Assembly (NCBI GenBank): GCA_014058405.1
Contig: CP047423.1
Coordinates: 558,001 to 622,000, forward strand
Length of the DNA stretch: 64,000 bases
Reading direction: 5' to 3'
Source of the DNA: Candidatus Nitrospira kreftii
GTDB taxonomy: Bacteria; Nitrospirota; Nitrospiria; Nitrospirales; Nitrospiraceae
Position numbers and translations under genes: made by a program
Notes under the pieces: generated by a model
Databases searched by the model: none
Told to the model about the DNA's origin: nothing
Seen by the model: only the letters and a program-made list of their open reading frames with translations
In this document: in pieces, positions 14,637-21,538 of the stretch
Layout: each line of letters opens with the position of its first letter
Position numbering within the stretch: the stretch's first letter is position 1

Positions 14637-15500
14637 CTACGCGACTGCGGCCCTTGCTTCGTACTCGGCCGGGGAGTCATAGCCGAGGGTCGAGTGCCGA
14701 CGCGTCCGATTGTAGAACACCTCGATGTATTCGAAAATGTCCTGTTTCGCTTCCGCTCGTGTGGCATAGTGCCGATGGTACACGAGTTCCTGCTTCAATG
14801 TTCCGAAGAAGCTCTCGACACAGGCGTTGTCCCAGCAATTGCCGGTGCGGCTCATACTGGCTGTGATGCCATGCGTGGTGAGCAACTGCTGGTAGGCCTC
14901 TGCCGCATATTGACTCCCGCGATCGGAGTGATGCAGGAGTCCTGCTGTGGGCTGCCGCGTGGCGAGCGCCATGCGGAGGGCCTGTTCGGTTAAATCTCCG
15001 GTCAAGCGCGGGCCCATCGCCCAGCCGATGACGGCACGCGAGTACAGATCCAGCAGCACGGCCAGATACAGCCAGCCCTCCATTGTCCAGACGTAGGTGA
15101 TATCGCCTGCCCAGACCTGGTTGGGCTGGGGCACCCTGAACTGGCGGTCAAGCGTGTTAGCCGCCACGGGCAAGCCGTGCGACGAGTATGTGGTAGCCCG
15201 CCACTTCTTCACGGTCTTGGCCCGGAGGCCATTGTGACGCATTAGCCGCGCCACGCGATGCTCTCCCACCCGGTGACCCTGTTTGCGGAGCGCCCGCCAA
15301 ATACTCGGACTGCCGTAGGTCTGGCGACTGTCCTGATGGAGCACGCGGATTGTGACCAGGAGCGTCCGATTGGCGACCGCCTGCCGACTCTCAGGACGTC
15401 CGCGCCACGCATAATACCCCGCAGGGGAGACCGCCAGTGCTCGGCACATGAGGCGGATCGGATAGCGACGGTCGTGCTCCTGGATCGCGCGGTATCTCAT
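14637..15500 (-). CDS. IS3-family transposase OrfB (integrase catalytic domain)
   Basis: 287 residues with an HTH_21 segment (YGSPSIWRALRKQGHRVGEH) and an rve/DDE integrase core: first Asp in WAGDITYV, second in HHSDRGSQY, and Glu in ACVESFFGTLK, spaced as in the IS3 DD(35)E family. Intact and without stop codons. Its ATG overlaps the orfA stop as ATGA. The OrfAB fusion made by frameshifting is the active transposase, while OrfB alone may have little activity. Confidence 0.93.
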   Translation of the reverse strand: MRYRAIQEHDRRYPIRLMCRALAVSPAGYYAWRGRPESRQAVANRTLLVTIRVLHQDSRQTYGSPSIWRALRKQGHRVGEHRVARLMRHNGLRAKTVKKWRATTYSSHGLPVAANTLDRQFRVPQPNQVWAGDITYVWTMEGWLYLAVLLDLYSRAVIGWAMGPRLTGDLTEQALRMALATRQPTAGLLHHSDRGSQYAAEAYQQLLTTHGITASMSRTGNCWDNACVESFFGTLKQELVYHRHYATRAEAKQDIFEYIEVFYNRTRRHSTLGYDSPAEYEARAAVA

Positions 15501-15793
15501 TGGGACTCCCTCGCGAAGAACGCCGCCGCACGTTTTAAAAAATCCCGCTCCTGCTTCAGGACGGCATTTTCACGCCGCAGTCGGGCCAGTTCGGCCTCCT
15601 CAGCTCGGAGGTCCTGCCGCGTCCTTCCACGCTCCTCTGCCTGCTGCTGCTCCGCCCGCCAGCGGTAGAGCAGATGGTCGGCAATGCCCAGATCTCTGGC
15701 TACGTGTGCAACCGGTCGTGCCGAGTCTCGGACCAACCGCACTGCTTCTGTCTTAAACTCTTCCGTATACTGCCGTCTGGTCTTGGTGCTCAT
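15497..15793 (-). CDS. IS3-family transposase OrfA (HTH_Tnp_1)
   Basis: 98 residues from the ATG at 15793, selected over one 7 codons upstream because GGAGG precedes it. Contains the helix-turn-helix of IS3 OrfA (RRQYTEEFKTEAVRLVRD, then ARDLGIADHLLYRW) and a leucine-zipper-like coil (ELARLRRENAVLKQERDFL). On the coding strand the heptamer T TTT TTA lies near its 3' end (15536-15542). Slipping back one base there keeps the frame open straight into orfB, giving the expected OrfAB fusion. Confidence 0.9.
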   Translation of the reverse strand: MSTKTRRQYTEEFKTEAVRLVRDSARPVAHVARDLGIADHLLYRWRAEQQQAEERGRTRQDLRAEEAELARLRRENAVLKQERDFLKRAAAFFARESQ

Positions 15794-15829
15794 GCTGCCC
15801 TCCAATTTCATCAAACTCCTCCTTATACA

Positions 15830-17030: not shown

Positions 17031-17271
17031 CTAGCCTGCTTTCGAAAAACCTTCATTTCGAAGAATCTCCGACAGGTTCTGCCCGTTGACAAAGACATCA
17101 GCGACGAGGCGATCGTAGACATCCCGACCATGCGGTTCGATGCGAATCAGGCCGCGGCGCAATAACTTTTCCAACCACCACTTGGCTGCCGAATCTTGTA
17201 GCTCACTCATTTTTGGCGTGTCGATACCGCGGAGTCTTAGACGACCATCTTTATTCTCTGCCCTTGCTGTC
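17031..17271 (-). pseudogene. 5'-truncated copy of a thermonuclease-like (SNase) gene
   Basis: The minus strand encodes RLRLRGIDTPKMSELQDSA, then IRIEPHGRDVYDRLVADVFV and a stop at 17031-17033. This is the C-terminal half of an SNase-fold nuclease, roughly three-quarters identical in protein to the end of the intact gene at 20820-21416. No start codon or N-terminal half exists: the frame is closed upstream at about 17272. It lies directly downstream of the copper-oxidase-like gene, in the same orientation as the intact copy on the other side. Confidence 0.75.
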
Positions 17272-17334: not shown

Positions 17335-20300
17335 TCAATGGTGACCACCATCATGGCCATGATCATGGTCATGGTCGTGGTCCTGCGGATGATCGGGACC
17401 ATGACCACCCTGATCGCCTGGGCCGTGCCCCTCCATCGACAGCGGTCGCCGCCAGGGCGGAAATATTGGACCAACTGCTTCGCGCTGAAGCGTTCGAATT
17501 TCCTCCAATGTCAGGTTTCGTCCATCGCGCAAGAGGTCACGTAATCGGTCCCACCATTCCTGATCGAGCCATGGACGGGGAGGACGCCGCTTGCCCATGC
17601 AGATCTGCACAAAGCGGCCGGTGCTAGGACGCCCGGTCGAATCGATGACGAATAGGAGGTAGTAGCCCACGATCACCACGTTGGGCTCGGACGGTACTGC
17701 AGCAAGGATGACGTCACCCTTTTCTCGGGTGAATTCGAGGGTGATGTGGCGTTGATCAGAATTGAAATTGTGTGTCACCGTGCCGCATCGAACGAGCACG
17801 ACTTTCTGAATATCGGCCGCATCGGGTGTGCGAATCTCCAGCTTTTCGCCGTGGCAGGCCTTTGGCGCGGCATCGGTGATGGATGGCCGGCGACCGCAGA
17901 AGTACCATGGCTCAAAAATCTCAATGCGAAGTTCTCGGTTCGACAGGCCGGGCGAGGCGTTGAAGTTAGAACCGGCGACCCACACAGCTCCATTCGGCAT
18001 GAGGAGTGCCGTGCTGTGGTAGCCACGCACGACCGGTGAGGCAGGCAGCACCCCCCACGTGCCGGATACGGGGTCATATATCTCTGGTGCGCGCACGCCC
18101 GTCGCGTCGTTGAGGCCGTTCTTGAGCCCTCCCTCGATGAAGATCTCTCCGGTGGGCAAAATGATCGCGTCGGCGTTTTCACGAACCGGATTCACGTCGC
18201 CCGGATTGGGATGGTCGAACATCGAGCGCGGTGCGGCGATCCACCCGGCGGCGAGGTTGCCCAGATCCAGAATGAACGGCATCGATCCTCCGGCCTGCAT
18301 GATGCGGGCGCGATACTTGTCCGTCGGCGAAAGCGGCAGCATCACCGAGGTGGTGTCTTGAGCGAACCAGTTGTCATAGATTCCTTCCGGTGGTGGAGCG
18401 ATCACATCATCCCAATCCGTTGCGTCGGTATACGGATGCCACTTTTCGAGACGCCGGTTGGCCATGGGCGACATGGAGATCACCTTTCCATCCGGCAGCA
18501 CGTGCAACCGGGGATATTCGTACCGGCGTGCGTCCACGGTGTCGATATTGCCGTAATCGACGGCTCCTACGATGGACCACGTGCCGGTCGCGGGGTCATA
18601 CAACTCAAGCGAATTGTTATTGTGACGACTGTCGTCCACTTCGGGGTGGCCGGAGACTGCGAGTACTCGACCGTCCGGCATCGTGACGAGCGTGGGATAC
18701 CACTTGCCGCCTGTTTTTTCGATGTCGAGTCCTGGTCCGACTTCGCTCGCACGTTGGGTGACCAGTTTCCCTGTGGCATGCCATTGGTCGTCGGATGGGT
18801 CGAATAGATAGGCATCACGCAAACCGATGAAATGTCCTGGCGGATGAATGCCGCCGCCACCCCACTTTCGCGTACCGCCTGCCGCAAGAATGCGTCCATC
18901 GGCAAGTTGGGAGTGGCCGGCGCAGAAAAGGTCGCTATTGCCCGGCAGCCCGGTGATGACTGTGATGGCGTGTGTCGCACAATCGAAGAGCCGCGTGTGA
19001 TCCACATCTCCTGCAGCATTAAGCCCACTGTCATGCTGATCGCCGCCAAAGTAGACGATCTTGCCTGTATGCAGGAGCGCGGCATGCACGGCGAGAATGC
19101 CGGCGGCTGTAGTATTCCCGACTTGGACCCATCGCCCTCGAAACTCCTGCACGAGGACGGGTTTGCTCAGTGGTGAGATGTGTTGGCACAGGCGCTGTAA
19201 CGCTGTCACCGAGTCGCCGACCGCCAACTGACTGCTTACGCCGACGGTGAGGTTTGTGCCGCCACCCACGGCGCTGCCACGGAAGATGCCATTGACATAT
19301 ACGTCGACCCGGGCACCGGGAACGACGTCAACCACACGAACGGCGTTTTCGCAAGAGTATAGAGGCTCTACCACACGTGGTGCTTGAAGGCGCTCGATCT
19401 TTCCCACAACGACCGTGTTGGACTGCGAGCTGACGAGCCCGCATCCTCGCTGGACCGCGAAAATTTTGTCGTGTGCGATGAGCAGTGGCGCCACGGGAAC
19501 GTCTACCTCGTCGGCATCGGCCGTGCGTTCGCCGATTGGCGCGCCGAGCAGGGATGAGTACACGTACACGCGCGCGCCGACGTGCAGATTTGATACTCGA
19601 ACGGCTGCGCCACATTCGAAAAGCGGTTCGTGCACCTTGGGCGTCGGTAGGGATGCCGGGGCGGGATCCACCAGCACGCCGGTCCCAGGGATACTCCATT
19701 CGCCGCACAATTCTTGAATGGCCGTCACAGTAGTCCCGCCGACCAGCGCAGGAACGAGGAAGTCGTAGGTGCCGTCCACGGGAGACTCGGCCATTCCGAG
19801 CTCGACACCATCCGCGAGAATCTTCACGCGGGCGGCCATCACCAAGCCGTTCAGTACTACTGTCGTGTTGCCGGCGCAAAGCGGAGGCACCACATTGGCG
19901 ACAGGCACGGGTGTGTTGTCCTGTACCATGACCGGCAGGGCATCGGCGCTCTTTAGCTTGCAGCGCCCATGCAATTCCTGCCTGGCGCTGATCGTTTCCC
20001 CCAACGCGAGCGGCGGATTCACGCCCATCCACAAGGAATCTAAATCGAAACAGGCCTGCAAATTCGGGCCGGCGCTTCGCATGAGCGTGACCGTGGCCCC
20101 GTGGACAACGTTGCTCACGGTGACGCGCCGTTCGCATTCGCGGAGCGGCGCCTGCACCACAGGCGTCGGAAGTGTCTGCAACTTTTCGACCAACACGTCC
20201 ACTGGAGGTCCATCGGTGACTGTACCAGGGGTACTGCAGGCGGTCTGTTGAGCCTTGATGTCCATACCCGCAGCTAACGGCGTGGCCAGATGGAAGCGGG

Positions 20301-20706
20301 CGTTGCCGTCGTAGCTCTCACCGGCACCGAGCACCGTGCCGCCGTCTCGCAGCTCGACCGTGGCTCCTGGTACGAGCCCCTCCAGCCAGACGCATTCTCC
20401 GCACTGGTTCAAGTGGCTACGAAAGCCAACCGTGCCGATGATCGGAGGCTTGGCCTGCACCTCGATAGGTTCTGGCGAGAGGGGACTTATCTCTACGCCC
20501 ACTGCCTGGGTAGCCGTAATCTGTTGGCCGGCAGTGAGCGATGCCGAAAGCGGGAAGATTTGGTCCGGCCACGAGGCTGTGCCGGATCCTACCGCAACGC
20601 CGTCTGCGAAAATGGTGATGGTCGAACCACTGAGCTGACCCTGTACGCGGACGCTCCCACTGCATGCGGACAGTGGGCCGATTACGCGGGGCGGTAGTAA
20701 CGGCAT
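17335..20706 (-). CDS. Galactose/glyoxal oxidase-like copper radical oxidase with six N-terminal repeats
   Basis: 1123 residues from the ATG at 20706 (GGAGG just upstream). Residues 1-520 hold six repeats of about 85, each opening P-x-V-x-x-P-L-x-x-C-x-x-x-V-x-V and closing with A-x-Q-x-x-C, likely Ig-like modules with a disulfide. Residues 525-930 form a kelch propeller and 935-1040 the DUF1929 early-set domain. The galactose-oxidase active site is complete: Cys595 (DLFCAGH) and Tyr670 (KWYPTL) for the thioether cofactor, Tyr896-His897 (RGYHST) and His979 (VTHNFNSDQR) for copper. The last 30 residues are a His/Asp-rich tail that could load copper. There is no classical signal peptide, which is odd for such an enzyme. 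The expected reaction is oxidation of an alcohol or aldehyde with release of H2O2; the substrate is unknown. Confidence 0.85.
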   Translation of the reverse strand: MPLLPPRVIGPLSACSGSVRVQGQLSGSTITIFADGVAVGSGTASWPDQIFPLSASLTAGQQITATQAVGVEISPLSPEPIEVQAKPPIIGTVGFRSHLNQCGECVWLEGLVPGATVELRDGGTVLGAGESYDGNARFHLATPLAAGMDIKAQQTACSTPGTVTDGPPVDVLVEKLQTLPTPVVQAPLRECERRVTVSNVVHGATVTLMRSAGPNLQACFDLDSLWMGVNPPLALGETISARQELHGRCKLKSADALPVMVQDNTPVPVANVVPPLCAGNTTVVLNGLVMAARVKILADGVELGMAESPVDGTYDFLVPALVGGTTVTAIQELCGEWSIPGTGVLVDPAPASLPTPKVHEPLFECGAAVRVSNLHVGARVYVYSSLLGAPIGERTADADEVDVPVAPLLIAHDKIFAVQRGCGLVSSQSNTVVVGKIERLQAPRVVEPLYSCENAVRVVDVVPGARVDVYVNGIFRGSAVGGGTNLTVGVSSQLAVGDSVTALQRLCQHISPLSKPVLVQEFRGRWVQVGNTTAAGILAVHAALLHTGKIVYFGGDQHDSGLNAAGDVDHTRLFDCATHAITVITGLPGNSDLFCAGHSQLADGRILAAGGTRKWGGGGIHPPGHFIGLRDAYLFDPSDDQWHATGKLVTQRASEVGPGLDIEKTGGKWYPTLVTMPDGRVLAVSGHPEVDDSRHNNNSLELYDPATGTWSIVGAVDYGNIDTVDARRYEYPRLHVLPDGKVISMSPMANRRLEKWHPYTDATDWDDVIAPPPEGIYDNWFAQDTTSVMLPLSPTDKYRARIMQAGGSMPFILDLGNLAAGWIAAPRSMFDHPNPGDVNPVRENADAIILPTGEIFIEGGLKNGLNDATGVRAPEIYDPVSGTWGVLPASPVVRGYHSTALLMPNGAVWVAGSNFNASPGLSNRELRIEIFEPWYFCGRRPSITDAAPKACHGEKLEIRTPDAADIQKVVLVRCGTVTHNFNSDQRHITLEFTREKGDVILAAVPSEPNVVIVGYYLLFVIDSTGRPSTGRFVQICMGKRRPPRPWLDQEWWDRLRDLLRDGRNLTLEEIRTLQREAVGPIFPPWRRPLSMEGHGPGDQGGHGPDHPQDHDHDHDHGHDGGHH

Positions 20707-20819
20707 GATGACCTCCACATTTGAATGGACTTATCTCAAGAGGAGACGCTGTTGTTTCACGTTTCTCGCGATCGGCTTAGGCGCCTTACCGGCGCGCTGC
20801 TAATGATGCGTTACTGGTT

Positions 20820-21416
20820 CTATGACCGCGTCTTTTCATATCCCTCCGAGATCAATGTATCCGCCACGTTCTGCCCGTTTACATACACGTCGGCCACGAG
20901 GCGATCGTAGACATCTCGACCACGCGGCTCGATACGAATCGATCCGCTACGCAATAACTCTTCCAACCGCCGCTTGGCTGCCGGGCCTTGTAGTTCACTC
21001 ATTTCTGGCGTGTCGATGCCGCGAAGTCTGATACGCTCGCCTCCAACCCGAATGGTATCTCCATCGACGGCACGGACTTGAAGATCGCTCAGGAGTCTCG
21101 TCTCCTGTCTCGACCGGGCTTTAAGCGTGGAAAGCCGGGACTGTTTGTGGGTAGACCCCAGTTTGTACCGTCCTTTCGGATAGCGTTGTGGGCGACTATC
21201 AGGAGGACGTTTGTGTCGAGGCTGTTTGTAGGTAGGGAGGCGATTTGACTCGTGCCCTTCATGTGGGGACGGATACCAGCAGAGATCGCATTGCTGCTGC
21301 AGACTCGATCCGAGATCGGATTTGGGCAGTCGCTCGGCATCGGCGACAGCTATGAACAAGATCAACGTCATCCATCCGAAGAGCGACCAAGTCACCATGG
21401 GCAAATATAGTTTCAT
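20820..21416 (-). CDS. Secreted thermonuclease-like (SNase) protein
   Basis: 198 residues from the ATG at 21416, which begins a signal peptide (MKLYLPMVTWSLFGWMTLI, cleavage near AVADAE). A basic, proline-rich linker (about 40-110) precedes the SNase OB-fold: VRAVDGDTIRVGGERIRLRG, IDTPEMSE, GRDVYDRLVADVYVNG. The staphylococcal nuclease catalytic Arg (RLRG), Asp/Glu (DTPE) and second Arg (YDRL) are present. It would hydrolyse DNA and RNA outside the cytoplasm with calcium. An upstream in-frame start at 21536 would hide the signal peptide and is less likely. A truncated duplicate lies at 17031-17271. Confidence 0.8.
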   Translation of the reverse strand: MKLYLPMVTWSLFGWMTLILFIAVADAERLPKSDLGSSLQQQCDLCWYPSPHEGHESNRLPTYKQPRHKRPPDSRPQRYPKGRYKLGSTHKQSRLSTLKARSRQETRLLSDLQVRAVDGDTIRVGGERIRLRGIDTPEMSELQGPAAKRRLEELLRSGSIRIEPRGRDVYDRLVADVYVNGQNVADTLISEGYEKTRS

Positions 21417-21538
21417 GGTGTTGATGCGTACGCAGATGTTGTGCCAGATTCTGCTCGATTGACAATGTTCAAAACGGCATGGTGCAATGCGTTCATGTGT
21501 CGAATTCAACTTATGATGCTTCACGGAGGTGTACATAC

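Follow-up and report, generated by a model that had tools for sequence, protein, structure and literature searches.

A probable extracytoplasmic, GlxA-related copper radical oxidase on a rod of six Ig-like domains in Candidatus Nitrospira kreftii

Results

A leaderless gene for a six-repeat oxidase

We analyzed a 64,000-nucleotide stretch of the Candidatus Nitrospira kreftii genome (contig CP047423.1, positions 558,001 to 622,000; the window) and focused on one minus-strand gene, 17335..20706, which encodes a leaderless 1123-residue protein with an immunoglobulin (Ig)-like rod, a copper-radical-oxidase core, and a His/Asp tail. Coordinates given below are window positions, and all features of the gene lie on its strand. 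The host genome is a single contig of 4.1 Mb, and the nearest named relatives of the oxidase are from Nitrospira. The open reading frame has 1123 codons plus a stop, running from an ATG at 20706 to a stop codon at 17335-17337. A GGAGGT ribosome-binding-like site lies a few bases 5′ of the ATG (20711..20716), the reading frame is closed by a stop eight codons upstream, and orthologs share the N terminus M(P/A)LLPPR; given these features, the start codon is firm. The sequence 5′ of the start is not conserved. Seven relatives of full length, drawn from several phyla, share 74-94% identity with the window protein, so the reading frame is not a chance one, and the gene proposed in a preliminary description of this DNA is real. 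We found no Rfam match around it and no promoter-like or terminator-like sites above chance.

The same description had reported a missing export signal, and this observation held. A search of the N terminus for a signal peptide, lipobox, or hydrophobic leader found none; the ATG and its ribosome-binding-like site stand directly at the first repeat, and with only eight codons between the ATG and the in-frame stop, no signal peptide can be hidden upstream.

The catalytic core is related to GlxA

Profile and structure-database matches assign residues 527-1036 (17599..19128) to a kelch propeller followed by a galactose-oxidase-like early set domain. GO-like_E_set matched at E 8e-20 and several kelch models also scored above their cut-offs, which identifies the AA5 fold. 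The GlxA profile NF052501 matched at E 2e-62, and the best solved relative was Streptomyces GlxA (4unm; E 1.6e-39), which shares the catalytic core, the adjacent Trp-Tyr, and the early set domain. However, the profile score was 211 bits versus an equivalog cut-off of 800, so the oxidase is related to GlxA without being GlxA itself. Galactose oxidase and other AA5 enzymes (1gof and others) have the same propeller, C-terminal domain, and five active-site residues, but the fungal enzyme is secreted with a signal, carries another N-terminal domain, and scores only about 100 bits against the window protein.

Alignment to GlxA and galactose oxidase placed five residues of the window protein at active-site positions, just as the preliminary description had proposed: Cys595 (codon 18922..18924), the Cys of the Tyr-Cys cofactor; Tyr670, the cross-linked Tyr, which adjoins Trp669 (codons 18697..18702); and the copper ligands Tyr896 and His897 (18016..18021) and His979 (17770..17772). 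All five are invariant in eight full-length sequences from several phyla and nearly so in 49 relatives, and Trp669 is also kept in the eight. Since these residues are invariant and the homology is to GlxA, a solved structure, the radical cofactor could form in this core. A literature search on a Nitrospira galactose oxidase found no paper.

The N-terminal repeats resemble Ig-like domains of Bap

The core is preceded by six repeats of about 85 residues, collinear in orthologs. Repeat alignment delimits repeat 1 (residues 3-86; 20449..20700), with Cys15 in the AB loop and no FG-loop Cys; repeat 2 (88-177; 20176..20445), with Cys102, Cys105, and Cys157; repeat 3 (178-261; 19924..20175), with Cys191, Cys219, and Cys249; repeat 4 (266-347; 19666..19911), with Cys277 and Cys334; repeat 5 (353-436; 19399..19650), with Cys365 and Cys422; and repeat 6 (439-522; 19141..19392), with Cys452 and Cys507. 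The preliminary description had the number and length of the repeats right; the C...Q-x-x-C pattern is found in five of the six, the first repeat lacking the second Cys.

That description had left the repeats unexplained. We modeled repeat 6 alone from 46 aligned repeat units (overlapping repeat pairs gave a staggered alignment, which was discarded) and obtained an Ig-like fold with a predicted local distance difference test score (pLDDT) of 96.9. The best structural matches were Ig-like domains of the biofilm protein Bap (7c7u, 7dm0; Foldseek E 7e-5), the top one with Z 14.0 and an rms deviation of 1.4 Å over 82 residues, and a second Bap domain with Z 12.1. By this model, the repeats belong to the Bap type of bacterial Ig-like domains and share the fold at about 20% identity. 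A Pfam search of the N-terminal region found no family over its cut-off; Big_6 and Big_3_5 matched weakly, and the best score was Big_6 at E 0.005 in one of the 46 units.

Most related oxidases lack the repeats, so they are not a module common to all such enzymes; had they been, the preliminary description would have been refuted. The six-domain leaderless rod is also joined to other C-terminal parts: in a Nitrospira protein (L011), in a DUF4185 protein from an Eleftheria plasmid (L031), and in Mycobacterium and Rhodococcus plasmid proteins (L032, L035). The annotated start of L031 (12001-14865) is 20 codons too late for the conserved N terminus. Four-domain versions occur on lipobox-bearing lipoproteins from Flavobacteriaceae (L058) and from the phylum of the window (L104, L105).

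A rod that resembles Bap and is joined to varied C-terminal parts could mean that the protein serves chiefly in adhesion or as a structural component of the matrix, with a propeller in which relevant catalysis was lost or was never present. We regard this as improbable: the complete set of catalytic residues and the neighboring Trp is kept across phyla, and copper-handling parts accompany the oxidase, as described below.

Cysteines of neighboring domains covary

We scored two Cys positions per domain: C1, the AB-loop Cys, which precedes the B strand, and C2, the FG-loop Cys just after the F strand. When C1 of one domain was compared with C2 of the next, 35 pairs had both, six had neither, and one was discordant (Fisher p 1.3e-6); the association persisted in the leaderless proteins alone (p 7e-4). 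Within domains there was no association (28 with both, 13 and 7 with a single Cys, 4 with neither; p 1.0); in this test and an earlier one (p 0.46), within-domain disulfides gained no support. The single-repeat model places the two Cys in the AB and FG loops. In the Ig topology these loops lie at opposite poles of the domain, so that a bond is possible between neighboring domains only.

These data suggest that the AB-loop Cys of each domain is probably disulfide-stapled to the FG-loop Cys of the next. The FG-loop Cys is absent from the first domain in all 10 proteins, which fits this model, as the model predicts it. In the window protein the staples would be C15-C157, C102-C249 together with C105-C219, C191-C334, C277-C422, and C365-C507; such staples would set its rod apart from Bap-type domains. 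The only discordant pair is that between repeats 2 and 3 of L031. At this junction the sequence of the window protein has a second Cys pair, Cys105 and Cys219; L031 retains this pair and has lost both members of Cys102/Cys249, so the alternative pair explains the discordance. Among the other leaderless families, those inspected by eye lack counterparts of both Cys105 and Cys219. The lipoproteins L058, L104, and L105 show the same Cys pattern as the leaderless proteins.

The tail and its possible copper supply

Between the core and the tail, structure prediction gave, at low confidence, a short helical segment (about residues 1044-1078; 17473..17577). Residues 1092-1123 (17338..17433) form a His/Asp/Gly tail of metal-binding type, with 10 His, 9 Gly, and 7 Asp in the last 35 residues. 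It is His-rich in all orthologs, in agreement with the His/Asp C terminus described earlier. In the orthologs from Rhizobacter, Rhodospirillales, and Belnapia, the His-rich segment runs on into a DUF1326 domain. In these proteobacterial genomes a gene for a PpoB2-family copper chaperone comes next, with a four-base overlap at the oxidase stop. In L053, DUF1326 matched at E 1.5e-35 and PpoB2 at E 2e-39, and both are also present in L052 and L054. Marinomonas PpoB2 is a copper donor to a tyrosinase (PMC2855505), and GlxA requires the copper chaperone Sco and a peroxidase for its maturation (PMC4736821). The Marinomonas PpoB1/PpoB2 pair is likewise a copper oxidase gene adjoining a PpoB2-family gene; it differs in that the tyrosinase is unrelated to the oxidase described here and in that the chaperone was not found in the genome of the window. 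A literature search on DUF1326 found no paper.

The tail and the proteobacterial association with DUF1326 and PpoB2 could also point to a protein that binds or buffers copper, its oxidase fold having been taken over for metal storage. A ten-His tail and one mononuclear site would make a poor store, however, and PpoB2, known as a donor to an oxidase, fits metallation better; we consider storage very improbable. In a bare-core leaderless relative (L103, 4735-6858, from G823), a Met/His-rich stretch (MHMHMEGMDAMAGM) replaces the His/Asp tail and looks copper-binding.

Where the protein acts

Sequence, domains, active-site residues, repeat fold, conservation, covariation, horizontal spread, and insertion were computed; from these we infer activity, the disulfides, where the protein acts, and what the tail does. 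We favor, with some confidence, the interpretation that the protein is an extracytoplasmic, GlxA-related copper radical oxidase on a disulfide-stapled Ig rod. The oxidase head, carried on a rigid rod built of six bacterial Ig-like domains, would turn over a primary alcohol or aldehyde with O2 to give H2O2, the substrate most likely being on a glycan or a small molecule. The His/Asp tail would gather copper for the active site, a task that the DUF1326 domain and the neighboring PpoB2 chaperone would perform or share in the proteobacterial orthologs. The finished protein would act outside the cytoplasm, where the disulfides and the Tyr-Cys cofactor would form, after leaving the cell by a route that uses no Sec or Tat signal, or by lysis. 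The cell-surface oxidase generating H2O2 that was suggested from the sequence at the outset is a plausible candidate.

The Cys covariation argues for an oxidizing compartment, and the absence of an export signal pulls the other way. The main competing explanation is a cytoplasmic copper oxidase: the protein would stay inside, with the rod as a scaffold and the cysteines reduced or metal-binding. This would account for the lack of a leader in every member of the clade described below, in monoderm and diderm hosts alike, and in the nearest bare-core homologs (L034, L076). It would leave unexplained why cysteines covary between domains and why the same Ig domains occur on lipoproteins; moreover, Ig rods and galactose-oxidase enzymes otherwise occur outside the cytoplasm, and copper and H2O2 are harmful within it. 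We therefore judge a cytoplasmic enzyme unlikely, if still the strongest competitor of the extracytoplasmic one.

Several results weigh against the extracytoplasmic interpretation. A signal peptide is absent from the window protein and from every full-length ortholog, and a search for a conserved secretion partner gene beside the oxidase found none. A phage-type contractile sheath (PF04984) was sought in the genome of the window and was absent, so export by contractile injection (of the extracellular contractile injection system type) was rejected; this sheath was present in two of nine carrier genomes and in three of 14 control genomes. Because related proteins share the Cys losses, the double losses behind the covariation may amount to only about three independent evolutionary events, and Cys452 has no assigned disulfide partner. 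A full-length structure prediction from an eight-row alignment gave a pLDDT of 56 with a poor propeller, so the active-site assignment rests on homology. Finally, PpoB2 was not found in the genome of the window by a search that was positive in other carriers, and DUF1326 was not found there by a search that gave no positive control match; in this host, the tail alone or other copper proteins would therefore serve.

The leaderless oxidases and their relatives

In a tree of 49 oxidase cores, the window protein groups (support 100/99) with seven proteins that have six repeats, with L099, an actinobacterial protein that has four, and with two bare cores, L076 and the Cupriavidus plasmid protein L034. 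All eleven members start without a leader, and all eleven have the Cys of an LFDC motif (Cys576 in the window protein); the other clades inspected show WDP or WDY at this place. By these sequence comparisons, the leaderless oxidases of the window type form one clade, with GlxA-type sequences outside it; the inner order is unsure, with some long branches. A search of viral contigs and phages for relatives found none. The Burkholderia AA5-CE3 fusion, as cited in PMC11267884, likewise joins a bacterial AA5 enzyme to an accessory module; there the module is an enzyme domain, in contrast to the Ig rod of the window protein.

One relative from the genus of the window (L013, from G004) has a cupredoxin-like N-terminal part, and its cofactor Cys aligns with Ser; it may be a nonradical oxidase variant. 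Five other oxidases of this family from the same genus (L004, L005, L006, L007, L026) carry N-terminal FG-GAP-like repeats (NVPDWFPWENAGG), are apparently leaderless, and belong to a separate clade. In a Chloroflexi metagenome sequence (L057, 8890-11367), about 370 residues are absent from the middle of a single open frame, from the end of repeat 6 through most of the propeller, and this gap is either a real deletion or an assembly error.

Horizontal spread and insertion at a nuclease gene

Identity to the window protein is 81% for the full-length ortholog from Rhizobacter, 79% for that from Rhodospirillales, 80% for Belnapia, 74% for Geodermatophilaceae, and 76% for Pseudonocardiales, whereas HemL, encoded two genes from the oxidase, is 54, 41, 41, 50, and 51% identical in the same genomes. 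This difference indicates that the gene moved horizontally. Among 300 genomes of the Rhizobacter order, the oxidase is in the Rhizobacter genome alone; among 395 genomes of the actinobacterial class, the six-repeat form is in the Pseudonocardiales genome alone, and one more genome has four-repeat relatives. The G+C content of the gene is 60.8%, versus 55.3% for the whole window.

The oxidase lies between two direct-repeat copies, identified by sequence comparison on the minus strand and identical at 147 of 176 bases. Copy 1 (20860..21035) is close to the 3′ end of the nuclease-like gene upstream (20820-21536), and copy 2 (17068..17243) lies downstream of the oxidase and bounds the inserted segment. 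In four relatives from the genus of the window (G035, G007, G003, G019) the site is empty: the next gene comes straight after the nuclease gene, a single copy of the repeat is present, and the oxidase is absent. The repeats and the empty sites together indicate that the gene, acquired horizontally, was inserted at the 3′ end of a chromosomal nuclease gene with duplication of the site. A second species with the oxidase (L049) has the arrangement of the window, and in another (L050) the downstream copy is present and a contig end truncates the upstream side; the inserted oxidase is thus common to at least three species.

New here are the inter-domain Cys covariation and the staples it suggests, the horizontal spread and insertion site, the proteobacterial link to DUF1326 and PpoB2, and the single leaderless clade. 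If our interpretation is right, it would extend the bacterial copper radical oxidases by a leaderless clade, would show a simple construction of a covalently stapled Ig rod through inter-domain disulfides, and would tie this oxidase type to the DUF1326/PpoB2 copper-delivery pair. A protein outside the cell would point to an unknown export route common to very different bacteria; one inside would be a rare cytoplasmic H2O2-producing copper oxidase. More speculatively, and in our view doubtful, the leaderless stapled six-Ig rod could be a mobile carrier module that moves between phyla and brings varied enzymes (copper radical oxidase, the DUF4185 domain, others) outside monoderm and diderm bacteria by an undescribed export route.

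A search for a conserved functional neighbor in Nitrospira found ordinary chromosomal genes only. The closest relative by HemL (G013, L118) lacks the oxidase at this site; its sequence just 3′ of the nuclease gene matches the left junction of the window, perhaps a scar of oxidase loss. A few kb downstream of the insertion, at 14637-15814 on the minus strand, lies an IS3-type transposase pair with OrfA/OrfB-like frames and high G+C content.
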